Part shown: piece by piece, positions 1 to 17,924 of the stretch
How positions within the stretch are numbered: position 1 is the first letter of the stretch
Layout of the letters: every line of letters begins with the position of its first letter
NCBI GenBank assembly: GCA_903884455.1
Contig: CAISEW010000013.1
Location: 1 to 42,206, forward strand
Origin: an uncultured Chloroflexota bacterium
GTDB lineage: Bacteria > Chloroflexota > Dehalococcoidia > GIF9 > AB-539-J10
Direction: 5' to 3'
DNA: 42,206 bases
The notes under the pieces: generated by a model
The model's database searches: none
Seen by the model: the letters and a program-made list of their open reading frames with translations, nothing else
What the model was told of the DNA's origin: nothing
Position numbers and translations under genes: made by a program

Positions 1-478
1 GTGTGTAACTTTTCTCGTTCTAGTCCAGTTAGACGTCGCAGGGGCATAGCTAGAACTGAATCAGCCTGGGAGGAGCTCAAAGAGAGCTCTGATTGTAAAT
101 TAACACTAGCAGTGCTGCCATCAGCAGAGTTAGTCAAGATTCTAATAACACTTGGCAAATTCTCTAGAGCCACAATTAATCCATTGACCAAATGCAAACG
201 CTGCTGGGACTGTTCTAGCTGGTAACTGTATTTCTTTCTGAGGGTTTCTTCTCTGAATTTGAGAAACTCATTAAGTAAAGTTTTAAGAGAAACCTGGAGA
301 GGCTTATAGTCAACTAAAGCTAGAAATATCGCACCAAAATTACTCTCAAGAGCAGTTTGCTGGTAGAGAGATTGTAAAATGCGCTGATGATCTGCGTCTT
401 TTTTTAGCTCAATTACAACGCGCATTCCCTGGCGATCACTCTCATCGCGCAGATCGGCAATGCCTTCAATTTTACCTT
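1..478 (-). pseudogene. gyrA: DNA gyrase subunit A fragment (internal part, no start)
   Basis: Reading the reverse strand from about 478 down to the window edge gives one open frame with unmistakable GyrA/ParC core sequence: GKIEGIADLRDESDRQGMR, then VVIELKKDA, a coiled-coil stretch, and finally AMPLRRLTGLEREKL. It corresponds roughly to the tower and coiled-coil part of GyrA (about residues 290-470 of a typical subunit). The AMPLRRLTGLER wording resembles cyanobacterial GyrA more than what I recall for Chloroflexota; this is from memory only. Upstream of GKIEG the frame no longer resembles GyrA and soon meets stop codons, and no plausible start exists, so the N-terminal breakage/reunion half is missing. 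The 3' end runs off the window. It is a truncated copy or an assembly chimera, not a working gyrA. Confidence 0.8.
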
Positions 479-598
479 GGTGACCATATAGTTGCTGTAG
501 CCAAAAGCAGTGATGTCCTTAAACTCCTTACCGTCTGCAACGAGCTGGGCAATTTCCCTCTGTTTATCGGTCCAGCGTAGGCTTCCTAGCATTTTCAA
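476..598 (-). pseudogene. Small helix-turn-helix ORF, N-terminal part only, joined to the gyrA fragment
   Basis: A reverse-strand frame starts at ATG 596-598 behind an AGGA-type ribosome site and gives about 41 sensible residues: SLRWTDKQREIAQLVADGKE, then a segment ending GYSNYMVTKVK. The pattern resembles the helix-turn-helix core of LuxR/sigma-4-like proteins (T-x-x-Q-R-E-I-A-x-L-V-A-x-G-K). After the VTKVK segment the frame runs antisense-like through the gyrA fragment in a different phase until a stop near 413, so the authentic C-terminus is lost. The breakpoint lies around 475-480. I infer a truncated gene at a rearrangement or chimeric junction; the HTH assignment is by eye. Confidence 0.45.
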
Positions 599-1299: not shown

Positions 1300-1327
1300 T
1301 TGACAGTTCCTTAGATAGCAGTATAAT
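1300..1327 (+). promoter_or_regulatory. Sigma70-type promoter of the Cas4-like nuclease operon
   Basis: TTGACA at 1300-1305 and TATAAT at 1322-1327, both perfect consensus hexamers, with a 16-nt spacer. Transcription should begin near 1334, about 50 nt before the first gene. A consensus promoter is unusual for a toxic nuclease unless a repressor or post-transcriptional control acts on it. Confidence 0.75.
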
Positions 1328-1386
1328 GACTTATATCAGAATAGTCTCTATAATACTCGCCTCTCTAGAGGAGGCAGGTGGCAGGA

Positions 1387-2055
1387 ATGACTAGGCCGCG
1401 AGATGGATTGTACGTATGGGTAACCTGGTTGTCGAAATTAATGTCTGGGGAGGTGCAATGCCATTGGAGCGCATGGTTCAAGACACATTACACTGATTAC
1501 AGAACGCAGCCAATTGATGCACGACTCGCCAGTTGGACAGTGGAGCATAACCAATATCTCGCCGAGTTAATCAGAAAGAGAAAGTCCTTGGGGGAGATCA
1601 CATATAAAGAAGACCAAAACAAATTTCGAGTAAGAAGGACTTCTGGTCTAGTGATAGCGGGCAAACCTGATTTAATAGCTTACAATAAGACCACAGGGCA
1701 ATACACGGTCTATGATGTCAAAACAGGCAGTCAGAGGCAGAGTGACATTATACAAGTTATGCTTTACTGTTATTGCCTGCCATATGCATCCCCTATCTAC
1801 AAAGGCAAGATGCTAGATGGATGTGTGGTATACAAGACAGACAAGATTGAAGTGCCATCGAAGATGATAGATGACGCTTTTACCAAAAAGGCGATCTATT
1901 TTCTGAATATAGTAGAATCTCCTAATGCTCCCGACAAATGTCCGAGTTCTATTGAGTGTGAATATTGCGACTTAAGTGGTGATGATTGTCCCGAAAAGAT
2001 GCTGTCGAGTGAGGTCGACGACGCAAAACAACCAGAGGGAGAAATACCATTGTAA
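1387..2055 (+). CDS. Cas4/RecB-like PD-(D/E)XK nuclease with probable Fe-S cluster (222 aa)
   Basis: Predicted DNA exonuclease of the PD-(D/E)XK superfamily. Visible motifs: GKPDLIAYN with Asp95 (motif II), YTVYDVKTG with Asp110 and Lys112 (motif III, D-x-K variant) and QVMLYCYCLP (the Q...Y motif of RecB/Cas4 proteins). One cysteine near the N-terminus (Cys25) plus a C-terminal cluster (Cys185, 191, 194, 201) follow the layout by which Cas4 and AddB hold a 4Fe-4S cluster. AGAGGAGG at 1367-1374 is 12 nt from ATG 1387 but only 3 nt from an in-frame GTG at 1378, so the start may be either. It lies 29 nt before a second, larger nuclease of the same superfamily, in one operon. No CRISPR or other cas gene is visible in the window, so a Cas4 role in spacer acquisition is not supported. 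Confidence 0.75.
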   Translation: MTRPRDGLYVWVTWLSKLMSGEVQCHWSAWFKTHYTDYRTQPIDARLASWTVEHNQYLAELIRKRKSLGEITYKEDQNKFRVRRTSGLVIAGKPDLIAYNKTTGQYTVYDVKTGSQRQSDIIQVMLYCYCLPYASPIYKGKMLDGCVVYKTDKIEVPSKMIDDAFTKKAIYFLNIVESPNAPDKCPSSIECEYCDLSGDDCPEKMLSSEVDDAKQPEGEIPL

Positions 2056-2084
2056 TGCATGGAACATAACGAAGGGGAACCGTC

Positions 2085-3515
2085 ATGGGGATTATTGACG
2101 AAATCAATCAGTTAGTTGCAGATTGGACTCTTGATGAGTCACTCGCATCTCTTCTTAAGGAAGTGATGGACCAGCAGCTCATCGAACAGCCGGCTCGTAT
2201 AGACTATCACTACGTTACTCATTTGACTAATCCTGCCCAAAGATTCTTTTCTATAGCATACCCTGAGGTGAGAAAACCGCCAGCACTTGCTAGAAGACTT
2301 GCTCGAGGAAAACAGTTGCATAGTTTTGCCGGTGTTTGGTTTCGGAATCTTCCAGATTTCGTTGTAGAAGAGGGGACGCTTGACGGTGCTTGGGTGGGAC
2401 TGCTTGGTGTCCGCGGTAAAATCGACTATCGTGTAGGGGATTCAATATTTGAACTCAAGACAAAGGATAAGCTACCTGAGACGCCGGAAGAAATCCTTTC
2501 ATCCTATCCGCAAGATTTGGAACAGCTAGTCTTTTATTCCGTCATTCACCCGTCTGGCCCTGCGGTCAACTATCTTATTTTCATGAAGAATTCTGCACCG
2601 TTTAACCTAAAAGCTTTCAGGGTGATAACCGAAGATGCTGGCACAATAAAGTCCATTTTGGTGTCCAGAATGAGAGCTCTTAGCAAATCTTTTAAGACCA
2701 ATGACCCCTCACGATTAGGTCGGTGTCGGTATTACGAGAGCGGTTGTGCGTATCGTGTTTCTGGTTCCTGTCTTTGTGACGGACTCGAACCCCTTAACGT
2801 CAGTGCATTACAACGCTCGGTAGTAATCAATTTTGACGAAGCCTTTACCAAGCTATTAGAAAATGCCAGAGATACACACGGGGGTTCAAGCACTTTTTCT
2901 TTATCGACAAGGGACATAATTGCTCCAAGAAAACACTACATGGAAGCGATATCTGGTTCGGAGTCGCTATACGAGGGAGACGAAAAAGATGAATATAAGG
3001 CATGTGCGTGGGTATCAATGAACAAGCTGAAAAAGCATCACGGAATTGACTTAAGCAGGTCGGAGAAGCAATCGGTGATTGAATCTCAACGTGAACCACG
3101 CCTAAGGGTTGGTTTTCGATGGTTGAAACTCAAGAGCTCTATTCATCCGTCGGGTGAGATTGTTCCGTACCTGCTGAACATCAACCTCTCGCGCAAGCCC
3201 GCATCCGCACGGAATCCCCATGAATATCATCTTGCCGAGTTGGGTATAGTATGTGCAGCCTATGGCAAGGGCAAAGGAGTAATAATAAGGGTTTGTCCGA
3301 ATCTGGGCAAATTAGTCCAGGTCTTTCACGTAACATATCAAAATATAGACCGCATTAAACAGAGAGTCACAGAGACTATTGACAGTCTGGAGAGAGCGGA
3401 AGAGAAAGAAGATTTGCTATCTCTGCCACCGTGTCCACTATTTATGAATGATGGCGGAAAATGTCCGTTGATGAAAGAATGTCATTCTGGGGAAGAAAGC
3501 GGCTGCACATTATAG
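2085..3515 (+). CDS. Cas4/RecB-like PD-(D/E)XK nuclease with C-terminal extension (476 aa)
   Basis: Second member of the nuclease pair. Motifs in order: RGKQLHSFAG with His79 (motif I), GVRGKIDYRV with Asp114 (motif II), FELKTK with Glu123 and Lys125 (motif III) and YPQDLEQLVFYS (Q...Y motif). A cysteine cluster spaced C-x6-C-x7-C-x-C follows near residue 210-230 and may bind Fe-S or zinc. Residues about 240-440 form an extra region I do not recognise, and the C-terminus carries another Cys-rich tail (CPLFMNDGGKCPLMKEC). A good ribosome site (AAGGGGAACC) precedes the ATG. The protein is about twice Cas4 length. The catalytic residues are intact, so I expect an active nuclease, perhaps acting as a heteromer with the upstream protein; this partnership is inference from the operon. 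Confidence 0.7.
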   Translation: MGIIDEINQLVADWTLDESLASLLKEVMDQQLIEQPARIDYHYVTHLTNPAQRFFSIAYPEVRKPPALARRLARGKQLHSFAGVWFRNLPDFVVEEGTLDGAWVGLLGVRGKIDYRVGDSIFELKTKDKLPETPEEILSSYPQDLEQLVFYSVIHPSGPAVNYLIFMKNSAPFNLKAFRVITEDAGTIKSILVSRMRALSKSFKTNDPSRLGRCRYYESGCAYRVSGSCLCDGLEPLNVSALQRSVVINFDEAFTKLLENARDTHGGSSTFSLSTRDIIAPRKHYMEAISGSESLYEGDEKDEYKACAWVSMNKLKKHHGIDLSRSEKQSVIESQREPRLRVGFRWLKLKSSIHPSGEIVPYLLNINLSRKPASARNPHEYHLAELGIVCAAYGKGKGVIIRVCPNLGKLVQVFHVTYQNIDRIKQRVTETIDSLERAEEKEDLLSLPPCPLFMNDGGKCPLMKECHSGEESGCTL

Positions 3516-4187: not shown

Positions 4188-4367
4188 GTGGAAAAACACT
4201 GCGAATGGCACTTCGAAGCATGTCGTCAGGCGCTCAAATACGGCATTGATTTTAGTAGAGCCCAATCCTGGTGTATAATTAATGCATACAAGAGGAACCT
4301 GTTTCAGTGTGCCAACTGCATCGACATGTGGACGGGGCATAATGACTATCACCAAGGACGAAGCTAG
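4188..4367 (+). CDS. Possible small Cys/His-rich protein overlapping the RM gene start (59 aa)
   Basis: A GTG at 4188, immediately after an in-frame TAG, opens a 59-codon frame that overlaps the type IIG gene by 26 nt in another phase. The product contains EKHCEWHFEACRQALKYGID and later NLFQCANCIDMWTGHNDY, with a possible zinc-binding arrangement H-C-x2-H ... C ... C-x2-C-x-D. No strong ribosome site is visible (GGGG about 8 nt upstream). Before the TAG, the same frame (from about 4101) also reads like protein, so this could be the tail of a gene broken by that stop. A TATAAT-like hexamer within it (4274-4279) may instead be the promoter of the downstream enzyme. Low to moderate confidence. 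Confidence 0.35.
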   Translation: MEKHCEWHFEACRQALKYGIDFSRAQSWCIINAYKRNLFQCANCIDMWTGHNDYHQGRS

Positions 4368-7065
4368 GCAGAAGATAGTGGAACTGGTAGCCAAGTACCA
4401 GGCTCTCATACCTGCTCAGATCAAGGCATTCAACGAGGAGGCGACAAAACAAGGCTTCATCCTGCCACTCTTCCACGCTCTCGGTTGGGATATCGAAGAT
4501 ACTTCCGCCGAAGTACTGCCTGAATACAATGCATCTAAGGGTAGGGTTGACTACGCCTTCAAGCTCAAAGGTGTTGCGCAGTTCTATACTGAGGCGAAGC
4601 CCCTGAAAGCTGACCTCACAAATCCCAACTTCATAAAGCAGGCAGTGACCTATGCTTACAATAAGGGTGTCACTTGGGTCGTGCTCACGGATTTTGAGAG
4701 ATTCCGGCTGTTCAACGCACAAACCGGTACTTCGTATATTAATCTCAGCTGCCAGGACTACATCGCTGAGTTCGATCGGTTATGGCTCCTTTCGAGGGAG
4801 GCTGTGAAGGATGGCCTCCTGAACAAAAAGGCGGAGCAGGATGGCGCCCTGCGGCTCTCCATACCCATAGAAAGGCGATTGTTCAGCCAACTCCGACAGT
4901 GGCGTGAATCTTTGTACAATGAGTTGTCCGCATTCAACCGTAATCTTACTGCGCCACAGGTCGACCAGATTATTCAGAGGCTATTCGATAGACTCATTTT
5001 CATTCGCACTTGCGAAGACAGGAACATAGAAGAAAAGCGACTGCTGGCTGCCGTACACCAGTGGAGTTCCGCCGGTCACAAGAAGCACACTCTCTCAGAG
5101 GCACTCAGGCAGATTTTCCACGAGTTTGACGGCTATTACGACAGCGAACTGTTCGCTCCTCACGTAATTGACGATGATCAATTGTTTATAACGGAGACAA
5201 CCATAAGGGACATTCTGAGCGGCCTGTATGACATACCGGGTGCGATTGCAGGCTACGACTTTTCCCTAATCGACGCCGATGTGCTTGGCCAGGTCTACGA
5301 GCAGTACTTGGGTTACGTGGCTACCGTGCCTAGACAGAAGCTGCAGACCCAGATGGTTTTGAGGCTTCCAGGTAAGACTCCGGTTGAGTTCACCGAGAAG
5401 AAACAACACCGTAAAGATCAAGGCATCTACTACACACCTATGTTCGTAACAGACTTGATAGTAAAGATGACTGTCGGGCTCTTCCTCAAAGATCATAGCC
5501 ATGAAGAAATATGCGGAATGCGTATTCTCGACCCAGCTTGTGGATCGGGTTCGTTCCTTATCAGAGCTTATGACGAACTACTGAGGTACCACGCTTCTCA
5601 CGGTGGCAAAGATGTGGGAGACCTTTCTCAGGACGAACGCTTACCGGTACTCAAACGCAGTATTTTTGGAGTCGATCTCGACGCCCAGGCAGTAGAGATA
5701 GCCCGCCTCAACTTGCTCTTGAGAAGCCTCGCAGAAAGAAAGAGGCTTCTCTCCTTATCTGAGAATGTGAAGCAAGGGAACTCAATAGTATCTGGAACAC
5801 CGGACTCGCTCAAGAAGTATTTTGGACAGCGCTATAAAGCTAAACACGCATTTGACTGGGCATCGGAGTTTCCCGACGCAATCAATGCTGGCGGATTCGA
5901 TATTGTCATCGGCAACCCGCCTTATGGCGCGGAGTTTGACCTGGGTGACAGAGCATATATTGATGATCAATATCCACATAGCAAGGATAACAAGAACAGT
6001 GCTATGGTCTTTATCGAGAAAGGCCTCAGCCTCACGAAAAATGGCGGTTTTTTTAGCTTCATAGTCCCTAAATCCCTCGCGTATAGTCAGAAATGGCGGA
6101 GTGGGCGCACAATGCTCATGAAAGAGATCGGCTATGCCTACGACACCAGCAAGGCTTTCAAAGAAGTGCTGCTGGAGCAGATGGTAATCGTAGTATCCCA
6201 GAAGTACGCTTCGTCACCGATATATCAGGTGGCGTTCTTGGATGAAAGTGGACCTTCGAATCCAACCAAGATCGCAAAGGATGTTTCTAAGGCAACTGAT
6301 ACGATCCCACTTGGTATAAACGAAGATGAGCTGGCGATATTTGCTAAAATGACTTCCTCGAATGTGTTCATGAAGGACGTCAGCAAGACGGCGCGAGGGC
6401 TTCCATTCCAGAGGTACCTTTCCAAGGGAAACACGGGAGAACCTGTCTACCGAGGCGACAGCGTTGGACGATATACCCTTTACCCATCCGCAGAGAGTTT
6501 GAATGATGCAGCTCTAGGAAGTGCTGTCGACAAGGTGTCGTTTCTGAGGCAGCCAAAGATCATGTCTCAGCAGATTGTTGCTCACGTTCTCAAGCCTGTG
6601 GACCACATCGTGCTTATGTCCACCCTCGACGAGAAAGGAGTTCTTGCGCTAGACACAGTCCAGAATACTGTGGTGACGGACAGAAGATTCGCCATTGAGC
6701 TGGTCACCGGCCTATTGAACTCTACGTTGTGGTCTTGGTACGCGTACAGGTTCATTTTTAGCAGAGCAGTCAGGACAATGCACTTCGATGGATACTATAT
6801 TGGGAAGTTCCCACTGCCCAGTTTGGATAAGTCCAGTCCTTTCTGCGAAGCCGACCGTAAGGACCTCATAAAGCTGGTGAGAATGATGACGAAATGGAAT
6901 GAGGGACTGCTAATGGTGAAAGATCAGTATTCTTACGAGAGAGACGAGCTTGGCGAAAAGATAAGGAAGACTGATCGCGAGATCGACTCTATCATCTACC
7001 GGATGTATGAGCTTACTGAGAGTCAGATGAAGCTCGTCAAGACTGGAATGGGCAGGGAGGATTGA
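4342..7065 (+). CDS. Type IIG restriction-modification enzyme (nuclease plus N6-adenine methyltransferase, 907 aa)
   Basis: A single chain that both methylates and cuts DNA. The N-terminal nuclease domain resembles type I HsdR N-termini: GRVDYAFKLKG with Asp70, then FYTEAKPL with Glu84 and Lys86, an intact D...E-x-K site. The central methyltransferase has motif I LDPACGSGSFLIRAYDELL (near residue 396-414) and motif IV IVIGNPPYGAEF (Asn near 525), typical of gamma-type adenine-N6 enzymes. The C-terminal 350 residues look like a TaqI-like target-recognition region followed by a helical tail. ATG 4342 is chosen because GGACGGGG lies just upstream and the preceding 20 codons of the longer frame look like leader. 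It begins a three-gene run with gaps of 16 and 3 nt. PglX of BREX shares the methyltransferase plan but lacks this nuclease head and needs partner genes absent here. Confidence 0.85.
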   Translation: MTITKDEARQKIVELVAKYQALIPAQIKAFNEEATKQGFILPLFHALGWDIEDTSAEVLPEYNASKGRVDYAFKLKGVAQFYTEAKPLKADLTNPNFIKQAVTYAYNKGVTWVVLTDFERFRLFNAQTGTSYINLSCQDYIAEFDRLWLLSREAVKDGLLNKKAEQDGALRLSIPIERRLFSQLRQWRESLYNELSAFNRNLTAPQVDQIIQRLFDRLIFIRTCEDRNIEEKRLLAAVHQWSSAGHKKHTLSEALRQIFHEFDGYYDSELFAPHVIDDDQLFITETTIRDILSGLYDIPGAIAGYDFSLIDADVLGQVYEQYLGYVATVPRQKLQTQMVLRLPGKTPVEFTEKKQHRKDQGIYYTPMFVTDLIVKMTVGLFLKDHSHEEICGMRILDPACGSGSFLIRAYDELLRYHASHGGKDVGDLSQDERLPVLKRSIFGVDLDAQAVEIARLNLLLRSLAERKRLLSLSENVKQGNSIVSGTPDSLKKYFGQRYKAKHAFDWASEFPDAINAGGFDIVIGNPPYGAEFDLGDRAYIDDQYPHSKDNKNSAMVFIEKGLSLTKNGGFFSFIVPKSLAYSQKWRSGRTMLMKEIGYAYDTSKAFKEVLLEQMVIVVSQKYASSPIYQVAFLDESGPSNPTKIAKDVSKATDTIPLGINEDELAIFAKMTSSNVFMKDVSKTARGLPFQRYLSKGNTGEPVYRGDSVGRYTLYPSAESLNDAALGSAVDKVSFLRQPKIMSQQIVAHVLKPVDHIVLMSTLDEKGVLALDTVQNTVVTDRRFAIELVTGLLNSTLWSWYAYRFIFSRAVRTMHFDGYYIGKFPLPSLDKSSPFCEADRKDLIKLVRMMTKWNEGLLMVKDQYSYERDELGEKIRKTDREIDSIIYRMYELTESQMKLVKTGMGRED

Positions 7066-7081: not shown

Positions 7082-7726
7082 ATGAATGGGCCGGTTCGTT
7101 TCTTGGTAGGTGGTCGTTACGCGAATCGCCGTGGTGAATACGAAGTCTTGTCAATCAGCGGAGATAAGCTGGTGATCAGATACGACGATGGGGTCACCCA
7201 AGAAGTCAGTATCTCCACACAGGCTAGGATATATCAGAACATGGCTCTTGAAGCAGTGGCAATCTCGCCTTATCCGGATACTGAAGCAGCTCGAACCCAA
7301 GCGTTCTATGAGTCGGTCGGTTTCCTTGCCATGCGAGCGACCATGCTTGAGGCCATTGTCCCTCCTCACTCGTTGGACGGTTTCGTGCGAGACTACATGA
7401 ATGTGAAAGGAGTAGCTCCGAAGTCTGGGCAGAGTGGTTTCTATGTCCACGACCCTTCGGCAGACAAGTGGGGTTGTGAATTGAGGATAACCTTCGCAGC
7501 TGCCGAAAACGAAACAGGGGGCCTAGATTTTGGCCCAGGGGTTGACATCGTGTTTAACCCAGCACATGAAAATAGCTGGCGTATCAACAACAACGGCCTC
7601 TGGTGGAGACTGTTGAAGCTAGGCTTCGAAATGGGAAAAGCGGCACAAAATGTGGGTATCATCAGGTCGTTGATTCATTTTCAGCTCCGGGGTTATTTCG
7701 ACGCTGGCGTGCACAGGGCAGGATAG
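7082..7726 (+). CDS. Uncharacterised RM-associated protein with possible SH3/Tudor-like N-terminus (214 aa)
   Basis: Unknown function. The first 45 residues (FLVGGRYANRRGEYEVLSI, then GDKLVIRYDDG) have the short-strand pattern of SH3/Tudor/KOW-like barrels that bind nucleic acid or protein. The remainder contains an alpha-helical segment and a Trp-rich stretch (NNNGLWWRLLKLGFEMGK) with no catalytic motif I can name. GAGAGGAG lies 10 nt before the ATG. It is co-directional with, and 16 nt from, the type IIG enzyme, and 3 nt from the next gene, so it probably belongs to the same system as a DNA-binding, specificity or control subunit. That role is inference from position only. Confidence 0.6.
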   Translation: MNGPVRFLVGGRYANRRGEYEVLSISGDKLVIRYDDGVTQEVSISTQARIYQNMALEAVAISPYPDTEAARTQAFYESVGFLAMRATMLEAIVPPHSLDGFVRDYMNVKGVAPKSGQSGFYVHDPSADKWGCELRITFAAAENETGGLDFGPGVDIVFNPAHENSWRINNNGLWWRLLKLGFEMGKAAQNVGIIRSLIHFQLRGYFDAGVHRAG

Positions 7727-7729
7727 CTA

Positions 7730-8275
7730 ATGGCAGACGAGAACTACTGGAAGAGGCAGTATCAACCTCTAAGGCATAAGGCAGGAGAACGCGAAAAGAC
7801 TACTGCACAAATCATTCAGGACTTAACTGGTCGTAAGTTGAAGGCAGTGGGACTGGGTGCCGAATCGGAAGGCTTTCTTCCGGGCAGCGCCGCCAGTCAA
7901 GGACATGAAAGAGGAGGAGCAGACTATGCCGTGATCGGTACGGACATATATCTGGAGGTTACTGGCCCGAATGTCACCGTGCCTCTCAGCGACCCGCTTT
8001 GGCTAAGACCAGACAAGATCGCGAATGCAAGATCTCACTTTCCGGAGCGAGACACTTGGGTAGTCCACTGTCTTCAACGAGACACCATCAGAGTAGTACA
8101 ACTAGATGAGAGGTTTTTCTCTGCTTACGAGCGCGGCAAGTACGCGACGGTTCATCCGATTATTCGAGGAGCCCCAGAGACGTACGTTGCAATCCCTGCC
8201 GACGATGAAAGCGTGCAAGACTTCGCCGCATTGATTGACCACATCAAGAGCTGGAAGCCTCGCGGTCACGAGTGA
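7730..8275 (+). CDS. Uncharacterised RM-associated protein, possible nuclease-like fold (181 aa)
   Basis: Third gene of the restriction-modification operon, starting 3 nt after the previous stop with AGGA 8 nt upstream of the ATG. Residues about 60-80 read GGADYAVIGTDIYLEVTGP. This Asp on one strand followed by a Glu on the next (D-x8-10-E-V-T) is how PD-(D/E)XK cores look, but the usual Lys is Thr, so catalysis is doubtful. A later strand (TWVVHCLQRDTIRVVQL) fits the rest of such a fold. It may be a degenerate nuclease, a DNA-binding partner or an unrelated alpha/beta protein. There is no membrane segment or signal peptide. Confidence 0.6.
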   Translation: MADENYWKRQYQPLRHKAGEREKTTAQIIQDLTGRKLKAVGLGAESEGFLPGSAASQGHERGGADYAVIGTDIYLEVTGPNVTVPLSDPLWLRPDKIANARSHFPERDTWVVHCLQRDTIRVVQLDERFFSAYERGKYATVHPIIRGAPETYVAIPADDESVQDFAALIDHIKSWKPRGHE

Positions 8276-11469: not shown

Positions 11470-11501
11470 AATTACTCTCTGGTCTTTCCACTTAACGAAA
11501 G

Positions 11502-11543
11502 TCCATAATGTGCAGCTCGGACAACAATTGCCTGTTTTGTTAC
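11502..11543 (+). repeat. 42-bp direct repeat, copy A (left of the HEAT-nuclease/HEPN pair)
   Basis: 35 of 42 positions match 17625-17666 in the same orientation. On the reverse strand both copies read as peptide: N-K-T-(G/S)-(N/Y)-C-C-P-S-C-T-(L/I)-W, with several differences at third codon positions. It may be a remnant of a repeated short gene or mobile element rather than a plain recombination site. Confidence 0.7.
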
Positions 11544-12062: not shown

Positions 12063-15000
12063 ATGGTTCGAAAGAATCTACAGAAGCAAATAGATGACAC
12101 CATCCGTATGGAGCTCGAAGACGTTCCCCATCAACACGTCAAGAACTGGTGCAAGCATATTGAGATTAACCAAGAGAATGTGAGCCCTCTTGGACAGATG
12201 GTCGGCGTCCCAATAGGAAGTAAACGCGTAGGCTGCCGCTTCCACCATGGTTATTCGGGAATGACCGTGAGACAGACGGCAACCTTATTCATCGAAACCA
12301 ACTGCTTCGATTGTTCTCACCATACACCTATTAGCTCTGACAATTTCGGAGAGGCTGTTATCTCGAAGGTCCGAGAGCGTAAGAAGATTAAGAATGAAGT
12401 CGATAAGGCGAGTCAATTATTACAGGGAATGACACCTTCGGATCCAAAAGGGGTGCTCGCGGCAAATGTCCAAACGGATGTGAAAGCAAGCGAACTCGCT
12501 GGTCTCCTATCAAGTGACGAACATAAGCAAGAGGCTGCTGATAAGCTTCTCCAAGGCGCTAAGTATAAACCGACCATAATATCACGCGGTTTGGCTTCTG
12601 TACTCATTGGCGCTTTTCTTGATACACAAGTTGGAAGCAGTGTAATGGAAACCCTACTTTTAGCTGGGCGAAAAGACAAAAGCATACTTAGCATTGCTGT
12701 CAAGGGCGCAGTAGTGGCTCTTCACGAGGGCAGAAACATAGACTCTGCATGTATGATAGTGACCGAAGCTATTGAACAAGACGAAATTGTTTTGACGGCT
12801 GAATTAGCGAGTACTGTAATTTCTTGGCTTTCTACGCCTGTGGAGCCATTCCCGTTTCTTGGCCCCACGACGCATTCGAGAACATGTCGCGAGGGTCCTG
12901 ATAGAGCCCTCAGAGCTATTGCAGAGAGGGATATTAAGCTCGTCCGCGAGGTAGTTATAAGTCTACTTAATTCTAGCAAATCATACCTAGTTGGAGCCGC
13001 CTGTGCAGCAGTACTAATCCTCCTGGAAGTATCACCAGACTCAATCACAGATTTCTACTTTCAGCCACTGGTGAAGGCATTATCCCAAGAACGCGAAGAC
13101 GATGAGACGTATGTGGATGCATCGATATGCGAAACGTTCGCTAGAATGCTGTTTCTTGAGCCTGGTCAAGTATCCAAAGAACTTTTCCGTGCAATTGAAA
13201 AAGCCGGCGAGGATTTACAAGAAGCACTAATTCACGTGTTTATGCGTGATGAGGCAATAAAGGTGGCTGGAGTTTGGATTGAACCTTTCATTAACCTTCT
13301 TACGAGCGAAAACCTCGATGACCGAACCAAATTTGAAACCTCAGACATACTATCGCATGTGACAAGACAATGTGCTGACACTGTGTTCGCTCATCTTACG
13401 TCCCTGTTTGGTGTGCTTGCTATAATTAGCGGCCGCTTGGACAATAAGCGGAAGAACGTACCCTTACCAGACAAATCGCATGTTTCGTATCTTGAATATC
13501 AACCCGACCTATCTACTTTGAGCGGAGTAGCGCGAAACTTGCGGGAAGTTATCAGGCAAGTTGGATTTGCGGATATTGAGAAGACCATTAGTGAGACCGA
13601 CCACCTAATTCGAGGTTCTGACACAAAGGTTGCTGCTTCTTTTAAATGTGAACTTTTGTTACTTTTAGGGGACATTGCAGAAGAGAATGTGGAGCTCGCA
13701 GTTAAAATAGTGCCAACAGTGTTTCCACACCTTTTTGATCCTGTGTCCGCCATTGTTCGTGGCGCTGCAGCCAAGGCATGTGCAAAGCTAGTCATTCGTA
13801 ACCGGAGTTGCTTACCCGAAGATGTGATAATCGCATTGGCAGCACTATTAGGCGACCAGTACTTGTATCCCGTTAAAGCAGCTGTTGAAGCTTTCGAATG
13901 GATCAAGATAGAAGACTTCAGATTAGCCGGACAAGTAGTTAATCGTCTGACGGTCCTCTATACAGCCTATAGAGAGGAGTCTTCGCAATATGATTTTCTT
14001 ACGAAAATTTCGGCTGCACTCTTGAATGTCGGAAATTCGCATTTTTCCTTTTTGCCGTATGCTGCATTAATCATAAAAGACCTTGCAGGTCATCAATATT
14101 TCTACTCGGCAAAAGAGGGGCTCCGTCTATTACGTAGGCTCGCTTGGGGCCATGAGGAGTATCAAAAACTATTTCTATCGGCATTGTTGGATTACTATTC
14201 TAAATTTGATTTGGAGATAACAGTAAGCCGTAGCGGATATCATAGCGGGAGGAGTGATAGTGAGTTTGAGGAATTATATGACCTCAACCCAGAAATAGTA
14301 AGGGCCGAATCTGCAAGGCTAATGACCGTTGCTCACGCTCAAAATGAGTTACACAACCTTGTTCACTTCGCCTGTATCTTGATAACAGTTGAACTATATA
14401 GTGAAGCCGCAGAGTTATTCGAAAGGTATTCTGCCTTGTTGCCCGTAGAAGAACGCTATGATTGGGAACGAGCCCGCTACAAGGCACTGGCGTTACTTCT
14501 AAGGGTCGAGACAGCTTTGGCAGAATCCGACCTAGATGGAGCAAAGGAGTGTGTCGAACAGGCTTTGGAAGTAATAGAGTTGCAGGAGAAACCCAAAAGA
14601 ATCCTGCCATTTGGATTGGATGAAGTCATTCCCAAAGACGAAGAGAAATCTGATTTCTACACTGATTGGTTACAAATAAGAAGATCATGGTTAAATCTGA
14701 TTGATAACCCAGCAGCTTTAGAGGAAGCGTCTGAAGAAATAATTGGCCGGATTCAAAGCTTAAAAGCGGTCCTCGTTGACCAAGCCGACGAAGGAATTCT
14801 GCAAGTTCAAGAAGAATTAGCATCTGCAGCTAAACTCTTAGCCCAGTGGTATCAATGTGTATTGAATGGTGAACCGGAGCAAGATGTAAAGCAAAACGCA
14901 ATCAGTGCTCGACTATCGGAGGCACTTAAGATCAGTCTCGCAAATGCTCATGAATTACTTAGGGACCATATCAGGGGTCAAATAGGCAAGGTTGATTCCC

Positions 15001-16127
15001 TTTCGGTAGCTGGGGGCATGCACGAATTTCTACAGGAATTGAAACTAATTCCAATGCCAATGCCAAGACAAGATCTACCGATGCCACGGAGCTGGCGTAA
15101 TGGTATGACGCGAGACATATCCGAAATCAAGCACAAAGAAGAGATTACGCCTAGCCATGCAAAAGTGGCATTCGCGAGTGTTTCGATCGATGGCCAAGCG
15201 ATTCCCCAAGTAATCAGCATGGTAGCTGGTCGTATTCACGACTTGAGAGTCAAAGTTGAACTGTCTGAGATAGACGCGCAGACACAGGAAATATATCTGA
15301 TACCAGTGTCAACTCTTCCTGAAGATGAGTATCTGTTTCCTAGACAATCATTATCTCTTTCGAAAGGAAAGAACACGTATGAAATACGGGGATATCTTCA
15401 ATTCAAACATTCGCAGTCCGAGTCTAGTGAACCAATTGACATCAATATTCAAGCGTACTTGCATAGAACTGATGGTACGAGTGAGCCTTGCACAATCTTT
15501 GGGCAATCTCAACTAAAATTCCGTGTAATCGATGAAGCGAGGCTATCAGCGCAGGGAACATCGGAAGCTAAGGCTGTTGGAAAAGTGTTTAAATGTCTTG
15601 AGAGTCTTATCCCTGGTATTGCTTCGGCAACCTACAATAATGAAAGAGAGGTCGTCACCAGCATTATTAACTACGCTGGCCTCGAACTTTGTGACCCCAG
15701 CTTTACAGGTTTGCAGACGGATGAGAAGGACTTTCAGAAAGATCTGTCCCGATATCTACGCATTCACTTCAATCGCGCTGACGTTCTCCGTGAGGTTCAA
15801 GCAGGTAGAGGATTTGTGGACGTACTGGTACGTGGCATTCCAGTAGAACTGAAGGTACTCAGAGGAAAAGAAGACTTGGAACACTTTATTGAATCCAGCC
15901 TGCCTCAGGCTACACAATACATTGTGAGTCAAGGTCGCGTGCTGGGCTTATTATGCATACTGGATATCTCAGAGCGAATGACCCCGGTGCCAAGCCTCAT
16001 TGATGATGTGTCAGTCTCTAAGGGTAGGACAGAAGGAGGCATCGATCCTTCACCAGAGGGAGCTATAGGTATCGTTACTATAGTCATACGTGGAGCACTT
16101 TACCCGGCAAGTAAGCTACACGGTTAG
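12063..16127 (+). CDS. Giant helical-repeat protein with C-terminal PD-(D/E)XK nuclease domain (1354 aa)
   Basis: Architecture read by eye: an N-terminal Cys/His cluster (Cys58, His61, His62, Cys81, Cys84, His86, His87), probably zinc-binding; about residues 120-770, an extended run of paired helices with HEAT-repeat character (such as VRGAAAKACAKLVIRNRS); about 780-950, TPR-like helices; about 1010-1150, a beta-rich, Ig-like region; and at about 1200-1310 a nuclease-like core. The core has GRGFVDVLVRG with Asp1253, PVELKVL with Glu1262 and Lys1264, then SLPQATQYIVSQGR, the D...E-x-K...Q order of active PD-(D/E)XK enzymes. No NTPase motif (Walker A) is visible, so it is not an Avs/STAND protein. 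It is followed by a HEPN gene and flanked by direct repeats. I infer a scaffold-sensor with a DNA-cutting effector. I know no described system with exactly this layout. Confidence 0.7.
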   Translation: MVRKNLQKQIDDTIRMELEDVPHQHVKNWCKHIEINQENVSPLGQMVGVPIGSKRVGCRFHHGYSGMTVRQTATLFIETNCFDCSHHTPISSDNFGEAVISKVRERKKIKNEVDKASQLLQGMTPSDPKGVLAANVQTDVKASELAGLLSSDEHKQEAADKLLQGAKYKPTIISRGLASVLIGAFLDTQVGSSVMETLLLAGRKDKSILSIAVKGAVVALHEGRNIDSACMIVTEAIEQDEIVLTAELASTVISWLSTPVEPFPFLGPTTHSRTCREGPDRALRAIAERDIKLVREVVISLLNSSKSYLVGAACAAVLILLEVSPDSITDFYFQPLVKALSQEREDDETYVDASICETFARMLFLEPGQVSKELFRAIEKAGEDLQEALIHVFMRDEAIKVAGVWIEPFINLLTSENLDDRTKFETSDILSHVTRQCADTVFAHLTSLFGVLAIISGRLDNKRKNVPLPDKSHVSYLEYQPDLSTLSGVARNLREVIRQVGFADIEKTISETDHLIRGSDTKVAASFKCELLLLLGDIAEENVELAVKIVPTVFPHLFDPVSAIVRGAAAKACAKLVIRNRSCLPEDVIIALAALLGDQYLYPVKAAVEAFEWIKIEDFRLAGQVVNRLTVLYTAYREESSQYDFLTKISAALLNVGNSHFSFLPYAALIIKDLAGHQYFYSAKEGLRLLRRLAWGHEEYQKLFLSALLDYYSKFDLEITVSRSGYHSGRSDSEFEELYDLNPEIVRAESARLMTVAHAQNELHNLVHFACILITVELYSEAAELFERYSALLPVEERYDWERARYKALALLLRVETALAESDLDGAKECVEQALEVIELQEKPKRILPFGLDEVIPKDEEKSDFYTDWLQIRRSWLNLIDNPAALEEASEEIIGRIQSLKAVLVDQADEGILQVQEELASAAKLLAQWYQCVLNGEPEQDVKQNAISARLSEALKISLANAHELLRDHIRGQIGKVDSLSVAGGMHEFLQELKLIPMPMPRQDLPMPRSWRNGMTRDISEIKHKEEITPSHAKVAFASVSIDGQAIPQVISMVAGRIHDLRVKVELSEIDAQTQEIYLIPVSTLPEDEYLFPRQSLSLSKGKNTYEIRGYLQFKHSQSESSEPIDINIQAYLHRTDGTSEPCTIFGQSQLKFRVIDEARLSAQGTSEAKAVGKVFKCLESLIPGIASATYNNEREVVTSIINYAGLELCDPSFTGLQTDEKDFQKDLSRYLRIHFNRADVLREVQAGRGFVDVLVRGIPVELKVLRGKEDLEHFIESSLPQATQYIVSQGRVLGLLCILDISERMTPVPSLIDDVSVSKGRTEGGIDPSPEGAIGIVTIVIRGALYPASKLHG

Positions 16128-16459
16128 CCCTTGCTAATCAACGGTTGCCGCAGGCCTGTTCAAGGAAAGCTAGTGACTACTCCCAGACTTGACATGGGCG
16201 TACCAATTACTCAGAATATTACCTTCGGCTATTTATCAGATGAGGTGTGTGTAGATATCCCAAAAGTTGATGGCTGCGCATATCCATGATAAGTGCATAG
16301 TTACCTCGACTCCTTTTTTCGTGGCTTTTCTCGGGCAACATCTCATGATTAGACTCCATTATCTGCTTGACGTAGAATATATTAAGCATCTGATAAGACA
16401 AGACTTGATCAACCTCCTAATCACGGTTAGAGTTGGCGGCTGCGAATGGTTGGTTTGCT
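16128..16459. other. Gap between the giant nuclease gene and the HEPN gene
   Basis: No convincing gene. A forward 68-codon frame (16267-16473) overlaps the next start, and its product is hydrophobic and unlike its neighbours, so I leave it uncalled. A weak promoter-like TTGACG (about 16369) lies upstream of the HEPN gene. Confidence 0.35.
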
Positions 16460-17416
16460 ATGAAATGGTATGATTCGGTTCAACATAGGATGCAAAAGGA
16501 GCTAGCACGGAGTGCTGTTGGCTACCTTAAGGTGGGGCTTGAACTTTTCCATCGGGAGTACAGAGGCTCCTTTGCTCTTATTGAACCAGCGACAGGTAAT
16601 TTGGCAATCGCGGTGGAACTGATGCTGAAAACACTTATGGCGAAGCAAAATCCACTCTTACTTTTTCGTGACCTCCCCTTGGAACTAAAAGTCCTGTTTG
16701 CATGTCCAGATGCAGTTACAGAGGACAGTTTCAATTGGCGAGCTTACGACGTCGAATTACGTGCTTATGCCTATAAGACAGTGGAGTTGGATGAACTTAT
16801 TTCAACTTTCTTTCTTTTCTTCCCGGGCCAGAAGCAGCTTCTGCGACCACATTTAAGATTCCTATCAAGATGCCGAAATGCAAGCCTTCACCTTTCTCTT
16901 CCGTCTTTTCAGACTTATGAACTGGAGAGAACTGCTTACGTAGCCCTTCGTGTTTACCTGGTTCTCTGTGATCATGATTCAGACCTCTTTGGGCTAACCC
17001 GGTATCATCTGGATAAACGCGATGAAGAGTTTCTGTCGAAGTATGATGCTGAGCGAACGGTAAGAGTGCAAAAGAAGATTGAAAGCGCTAGGGAAAATGC
17101 CAAACGGATTGAGGCTAAAAGTGTTGGAGTGCTTGTTGACGGATGGGATGTGTATGTAACAACGTGCCCCGTGTGCGGATGTGATGGTGTGCTCACTGGT
17201 GAGACCACAGTGGAGGCGGACATAGGTGAAGAGGAGAGTGCCAACCCATATTTAATGTTTTTCGCTGATACTTTTAAGTGTGATGAATGTGGATTAAGTT
17301 TAGATGACGCCAGCGAATTAGAATTAGCTGGCATACGTTTATCTTATGACAGGCCCGAGAGAGATATGGAGAAGTGGGTAGCTCAAATGGAACCTCTCGA
17401 TTTGGACGATTACTGA
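16460..17416 (+). CDS. HEPN-domain protein with zinc ribbon (318 aa)
   Basis: Predicted HEPN ribonuclease. The helical N-terminal half contains GNLAIAVELMLKTLM, the helix that often opens HEPN domains, and CRNASLHLS, in which Arg139-Asn140-...-His144 forms the R-N-x3-H catalytic motif (Rx4H class). A short coiled-coil linker (about residues 190-220) leads to a zinc ribbon: CPVCGCDG (Cys236, Cys239) and CDECG (Cys274, Cys277), which could bind nucleic acid or protein. ATG 16460 is chosen; an in-frame TTG at 16433 is possible, and neither has a clear ribosome site. It is co-directional with the giant helical-repeat nuclease 332 nt upstream and lies inside the same direct-repeat pair. HEPN proteins commonly act as RNA-cleaving abortive-infection effectors or partners of minimal nucleotidyltransferases; no nucleotidyltransferase is seen here. 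Confidence 0.7.
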   Translation: MKWYDSVQHRMQKELARSAVGYLKVGLELFHREYRGSFALIEPATGNLAIAVELMLKTLMAKQNPLLLFRDLPLELKVLFACPDAVTEDSFNWRAYDVELRAYAYKTVELDELISTFFLFFPGQKQLLRPHLRFLSRCRNASLHLSLPSFQTYELERTAYVALRVYLVLCDHDSDLFGLTRYHLDKRDEEFLSKYDAERTVRVQKKIESARENAKRIEAKSVGVLVDGWDVYVTTCPVCGCDGVLTGETTVEADIGEEESANPYLMFFADTFKCDECGLSLDDASELELAGIRLSYDRPERDMEKWVAQMEPLDLDDY

Positions 17417-17624
17417 GGCCCATATGCTTAACCACTAGCTTCAATCGGTCTTCTGGACTCATAGCATATACAATATATACAATACTCTCTACCACTCACT
17501 TCACTAAACGGATTACCCATGTAATTGCTAAGCTCCAACACCGCTGATTTCACGATTTGGTGGGGCGTCTAACACACTGCATCACACAAAGTAGCAGTTT
17601 GTTTCACCTTCGCCCAACAAAAAT

Positions 17625-17666
17625 CCAGATTGTGCAGCTTGGGCAACAATAACTTGTTTTGTTACT
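17625..17666 (+). repeat. 42-bp direct repeat, copy B (right of the HEAT-nuclease/HEPN pair)
   Basis: Matches 11502-11543 at 35 of 42 positions, same orientation. The reverse strand reads SNKTSYCCPSCTIW within a short open stretch that ends in a stop within ten codons. Confidence 0.7.
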
Positions 17667-17774
17667 CAACTGCACAGGTCGTCGGGAAAGTGCAGCGCCT
17701 GGGTAAGTGCAGGGCAATAGCTCGGACCATACGCTGAATCGGTCTAGTCGTTTTTGTGTAACGCCTGGCGGAGT

Positions 17775-17895
17775 ACTGTGATTACCACTATGATTTTCTA
17801 CTGTGATTTACTATGATTAGCACTATGATTGATTGCTATGATTACCTAGGACTGATACTATGACTTTCAACTATGATTACTACTATGATTTATTG
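17775..17895. repeat. Degenerate tandem repeat of ACTATGATT-type units
   Basis: About ten variants of (A)CTATGATT(A/T) or CTGTGATT follow one another at irregular 10-15 bp spacing. The tract sits just past the stop codon of the reverse-strand 514-aa gene. It might act as a protein-binding array, a terminator region or a replication-slippage product; nothing decides between these. Confidence 0.65.
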
Positions 17896-17924
17896 TCAAA
17901 ATCGCACTAAGATTGGCTGTGACC

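Follow-up and report, generated by a model that had tools for sequence, protein, structure and literature searches.

Organization of the locus

The DNA analysed here, referred to as the window, is a stretch of 42,206 nucleotides from an uncultured Chloroflexota bacterium of the class Dehalococcoidia. Close to its start two consecutive open reading frames encode PD-(D/E)XK proteins, here named P1 and P2, at the positions where a preliminary description had placed them (Table 1). The two genes are separated by a gap of 29 bp, and both lie on the same strand downstream of one TTGACA-16-TATAAT promoter. The TTGACA at 1300 and the TATAAT at 1327, with a spacer of 16, match the consensus at 12 of 12 positions, as described before. 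Over 5 kb there were 16 promoter-like sites (7.1 on average in shuffles), and this one scored highest. From the tandem reading frames and the single promoter we infer, in agreement with the preliminary description, that P1 and P2 are probably co-transcribed as an operon. Translation of P1 more likely starts at the ATG at 1387, which gives 222 aa with the same stop at 2055, than at the GTG at 1378, because its relatives begin with M-T-x-x-R-x-x-x-YVWVTWL. A third gene upstream of the pair is possible, since the contig ends 1.3 kb upstream.

Table 1. Positions of the P1 and P2 genes and of other features in the window.
Feature	Position	Strand	Remarks
Second gyrA, fragment	6-497	-	very end of contig, N-terminal part missing
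Predicted sigma-70-type promoter, TTGACA-16-TATAAT	1300..1327	+	read in sequence
P1, Cas4/EXO5-like PD-(D/E)XK nuclease (predicted), stand-alone type	1378..2055	+	225 aa from GTG 1378
P2, tandem-domain Cas4-like protein, 476 aa	2085..3515	+	related over its full length to bacterial and archaeal proteins
P2 N-terminal nuclease domain, aa ~36-240	2190..2804	+	catalytic set intact, four-Cys cluster
P2 C-terminal domain, aa ~262-476	2868..3512	+	degenerate second copy, catalytic Glu replaced
Type IIG restriction enzyme-methyltransferase	4282-7065	+	Eco57I/N6_Mtase, TaqI_C; PADLOC REase_MTase_IIG 2.6e-86
Two short ORFs after type IIG gene	7082-7726, 7730-8275		no family match
1354-aa protein	12063-16127	+	weak OloA (Olokun defence system) match 2.3e-8, HEAT-like repeats
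327-aa protein	16433-17416	+	sub-threshold Lar restriction-alleviation-like zinc motif, 0.002

Relatives of the same genus carry different genes beyond phoU, next to the conserved pst-phoU operon, and the first 20 kb of the window (1-20 kb) are therefore regarded as a variable segment. The gyrA fragment at the contig end was 41% identical to the full-length gyrA that the genome carries on contig C37; it may be cyanobacteria-like and is probably either foreign or a misassembled contig edge. A 50-nt direct repeat was observed at 11494-11543 and 17616-17665 (82% identical, 6.1 kb apart), and the two copies flank the OloA-like gene together with the gene next to it. Short AT-rich repeats in tandem (TACTATGATT-like) were seen at 17774-17903, just past the end of a minus-strand ORF.

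The preliminary description had pointed out that cas1, a repeat array and a helicase were missing nearby. Cas1 was not found anywhere in the genome, which is 99.5% complete, the part of the window from 1 to 18 kb showed no CRISPR-type array, and a scan of P1, P2 and the eight genes after them detected no helicase family. A role of the two proteins in CRISPR adaptation was rejected, as the genome is without cas1.

P1 resembles solo Cas4-like nucleases

In the Pfam profile scan P1 scored 26.8 bits against PDDEXK_1, above the cut-off of 22, and 21.0 bits against Cas_Cas4, just below the curated cut-off of 22.7. The catalytic-set residues H57, D98, K115 and Q126 were invariant among the aligned relatives, and so were the cysteines C28, C194, C197 and C204, which form the 1+3 layout of Cas4. 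The 1+4 layout assigned to P1 earlier overcounts, because C190 is private to the window protein. Thus the Cas4-like cluster described before was retained with its single N-terminal cysteine, but not with a fourth C-terminal one.

With its invariant D98, K115 and Q126, P1 has a RecB-type PD-(D/E)XK core, and its AF2 model (pLDDT 87) has a Cas4 fold. The structural matches of the model were the archaeal Cas4 SSO0001 (4ic1; Z 12.9), AdnA (12.2), the Cas4-Cas1-Cas2 complex (11.9) and EXO5 (11.6); with Z differing by no more than about 1.5, none of the four is favoured. A search against PDB sequences gave chance matches only. Human EXO5 (7lw7-7lwa) has the same fold, but its identity to P1 is only 13–17% in the aligned part; its cysteines presumably show an N- plus C-terminal arrangement as in P1. 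Judged from sequence and model, P1 is a single-domain Cas4/EXO5/AdnA-like nuclease, with a predicted Fe-S cluster. PD-(D/E)XK enzymes hydrolyse DNA with two metal ions, and hence the same chemistry is predicted for P1 and for the first half of P2.

Relatives of P1 were present in 25 of the 294 genomes of the class. The nearest ones, with 50–56% identity, sit on bacterial chromosomes of the same class, and most others were 32–44% identical. The profile search also recovered relatives in 11 viral contigs, surrounded by phage replication and packaging genes. Against plasmids there was one match, a Synechocystis plasmid gene (32%), and the search against phages gave none. Twenty cellular neighbourhoods of P1 relatives had no common partner apart from lineage-specific synteny, which in one family placed the gene beside thiL/tsaE/tsaD-like genes, and a P2-like gene was found in 0 of these 20. 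The P1 family stands alone in bacterial chromosomes and phage-like contigs. Relatives of P1 and P2 were recovered by profiles only; scans of the genome and viral collections with single-sequence patterns for either protein found nothing.

Non-CRISPR pfam12705 Cas4-like proteins have already been described and are mostly uncharacterised (PMC5704561). P1 resembles them in its best profile (PDDEXK_1), its single domain, the 1+3 cysteines, the stand-alone position without CRISPR neighbours and the occurrence also in phages. It differs from CRISPR-associated Cas4 by its score below the Cas_Cas4 cut-off and by a surrounding without cas1 or array. Several of the solo pfam12705 groups are linked to a helicase, either UvrD or COG1205, whereas the P1 family is not. 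The RecB-type nuclease fold of P1 and P2 is shared with RecBCD, AddAB and AdnAB, but neither protein has a helicase domain, and none was recognised in the neighbouring genes scanned. Inactive nuclease-like domains also occur in the RecBCD/AddAB/AdnAB group.

P2 is a fusion of an intact and a degenerate nuclease domain

P2 had no significant match in Pfam, NCBIfam, PADLOC or PHROG, and no match among PDB sequences. In an alignment of 24 sequences (the window P2 and 23 relatives) the N-terminal residues H79, D114, E123, K125, Q147 and Y151 were invariant, as were the cysteines C214, C221, C229 and C231. The RecB/Cas4 motifs proposed earlier for P2 were borne out by this invariant catalytic set, but the cysteine cluster is not Cas4-like, because all four cysteines are located downstream of the core. 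In the structural search the N-terminal domain matched SSO0001 with Z 14.4 over residues 37-234, which was the top match as it was for P1, and mimivirus R354 (5yet/5yeu) aligned with this domain only (Z 9.5–9.8). The N-terminal domain has a Cas4-type fold and catalytic set; P2 as a whole differs from SSO0001, and from single-domain Cas4 with 1+3 cysteines, in its second, dead domain and the 0+4 layout.

The remaining 230 aa of P2 had been regarded as an extension that could not be assigned. Comparison of the N-half with the C-half by hhalign gave 99.5–99.7% (E 1e-22 to 3e-26) over 182–187 columns, and the controls failed to reproduce this, with 0.2% for the reversed sequence and at most 0.32% in 20 shuffles. 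The bacterial-type subset alone reached 99.7%, and the Thermoplasmatales-type subset alone gave a weak duplication signal (56%, E 1e-4). In the second half the column of the catalytic Glu holds L, I, V, M or H in 24 of 24 sequences. The cysteines C450, C460 and C466 are kept in all 24 and C390 in 22. The order of secondary-structure elements agrees between the halves of the model, which is of moderate confidence (pLDDT 66; about 75–82 in the better stretches of the C-terminal domain, 21–48 in its linker). A structural match for the C-terminal domain alone was not obtained, the model being weak there and the N-terminal domain dominating the search.

We concluded that P2 carries its nuclease domain twice and that the C-half is the degenerate copy, which originated from an intragenic duplication. 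As the halves are homologous and the catalytic set is kept in the first and the Glu lost from the second, P2 is a fused twin of an active-type and a dead domain. Sau3AI and COG1395 proteins of the PAB2104 type are known to have PD-(D/E)XK domains in tandem, the C-terminal one being degenerate, and in them the degenerate second domains can serve as DNA-binding parts (PMC1189080). These belong to restriction enzyme or Holliday-resolvase lineages, whereas P2 is of Cas4/RecB-type with cysteine clusters in both halves. Since the degenerate domains of Sau3AI and COG1395 act in this way, the dead domain of P2, which keeps its cysteines, is probably a platform for binding or clamping DNA.

Distribution of the P2 family and origin of the window copy

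Relatives that aligned with P2 over its whole length were found in 9 of the 294 class genomes. Further ones occur in ANGP1, Armatimonadota, a Euryarchaeota bin and Thermoplasmata, with 14 of 194 genomes positive in the archaeal phylum that holds the Thermoplasmata. Searches of P2 against plasmids and phages gave no match, and the P2 profile found no relative in viral contigs. In most Dehalococcoidia a DUF763 gene (PF05559) lies directly upstream of the P2-type gene (L012 7384-8469, L013 8043-9140, L079 6722-7807 and others), and the two possibly form a two-gene unit. The archaeal relatives adjoin housekeeping genes. In the Euryarchaeota bin a DEAD-type helicase gene is divergent from the P2-type gene (L084 6369-7835).

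The genome of the window contains a second P2-type gene (C31:11672-12994), which is the copy typical of the genus, usually found downstream of the DUF763 gene. The window P2 was 24% identical to this copy and 28% to the nearest archaeal sequences. In the tree it joined five sequences of the archaeal phylum with support of 100/100; a topology uniting it with the Dehalococcoidia copies was rejected (p-AU 3e-95). An insertion common to the window P2 and the archaeal group (residues ~88-100 of the window P2, VWFRNLPDFVVEEG / QWFEQLPGFSGSE) agrees with the tree. The exact placement carries some risk, because the window P2 forms a long branch. An origin as recent duplicate of the genus copy was rejected by the archaeal grouping and the same p-AU value. 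The sequence comparison suggests that the window P2 was probably acquired laterally; its type was found in 0 of the 83 other genomes of the order (84 searched including this one).

P1 and P2 are not a conserved pair

The two families overlap in only 1 of the 294 class genomes, the present one, where about 0.8 would be expected by chance. Of six genomes carrying P2 relatives, five gave no P1 match, and the sixth showed a weak one only (E 1e-4, one internal stop). None of the P2-relative neighbourhoods listed contained a P1-like gene. Neither adjacency nor co-occurrence across genomes was therefore seen, and the P1-P2 pair is not a conserved unit. With an overlap in a single genome of the class and a window-type P2 unique in the order, the adjacency is most readily taken as a local arrangement. 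The pair members did not lie mostly in CRISPR loci, and homologues belonging to a helicase-nuclease system were not found. A stand-alone complex of the two nucleases, as envisaged in the preliminary description, was thus not supported, the relatives of each normally being found without the other.

Interpretation

We consider it likely that P1 and P2 are separate solo Cas4-like nucleases with RecB-type PD-(D/E)XK domains, brought into one operon by chance in a variable segment, and that P2 is a fused pseudo-dimer. P1 would then be a Cas4/EXO5/AdnA-type nuclease with a single domain and an Fe-S cluster, and its most likely task is the degradation or trimming of DNA ends. The N-terminal domain of P2 would cut DNA by two-metal chemistry beside its dead twin. 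Both may be used in DNA repair or in the clearance of foreign DNA.

A purely housekeeping function, with both proteins as repair or recombination exonucleases and the window P2 as a spare copy of the DUF763-linked enzyme that has no part in defence, is a possible but clearly less probable reading. The chromosomal P2 family with its DUF763 and archaeal housekeeping neighbours, the thiL/tsaE/tsaD-like genes beside P1 in one family, and the mostly vertical evolution of solo-cas4 genes (PMC5704561) are consistent with it; the window P2, however, is archaeal-like instead of a recent duplicate and lies among accessory and restriction genes. We regard as unlikely a dedicated helicase-free nuclease of two subunits against phages or plasmids, in which P1 or DNA would dock on the dead domain of P2 and each active site would cut one of the two strands. 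The gap of 29 bp and the strong promoter invite joint function, and among the adjoining accessory genes, in a segment variable within the genus, is the type IIG restriction-modification gene. The same setting favours the defence role suggested earlier, as a matter of location only. But a second pair is absent from 294 class and 84 order genomes, the families do not co-occur, and P1 is common as a stand-alone and phage gene. A new paired system is improbable because each family normally stands alone and P2 is itself two-headed with one copy dead. Even further from our expectation is that an archaeal-type P2 exchanged its DUF763 partner for P1 and formed a helicase-free nuclease machine in which the dead twin scaffolds P1.

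As unlikely as the dedicated two-subunit nuclease is a reading in which P1, of phage origin or an anti-defence nuclease, has stayed behind in the chromosome and P2 arrived on the same mobile element. Cas4 on mobile elements is a known theme (PMC5704561), and the 11 viral contigs fit such an origin. Against it, the closest P1 relatives are on bacterial chromosomes of the same class, no viral, phage or plasmid collection searched held a P2 relative, and the scan of window proteins showed none of phage structural type.

The pair itself is probably ordinary. The P2 gene exposes a family of ~440–480 aa without a full-length domain model, in which a Cas4-type nuclease was duplicated within one polypeptide and one copy is dead across bacteria and archaea. 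This adds a case of pseudo-nuclease evolution to the Cas4 branch, and the DUF763 neighbour, itself uncharacterised, offers a concrete and testable repair or defence hypothesis for the P2 family.
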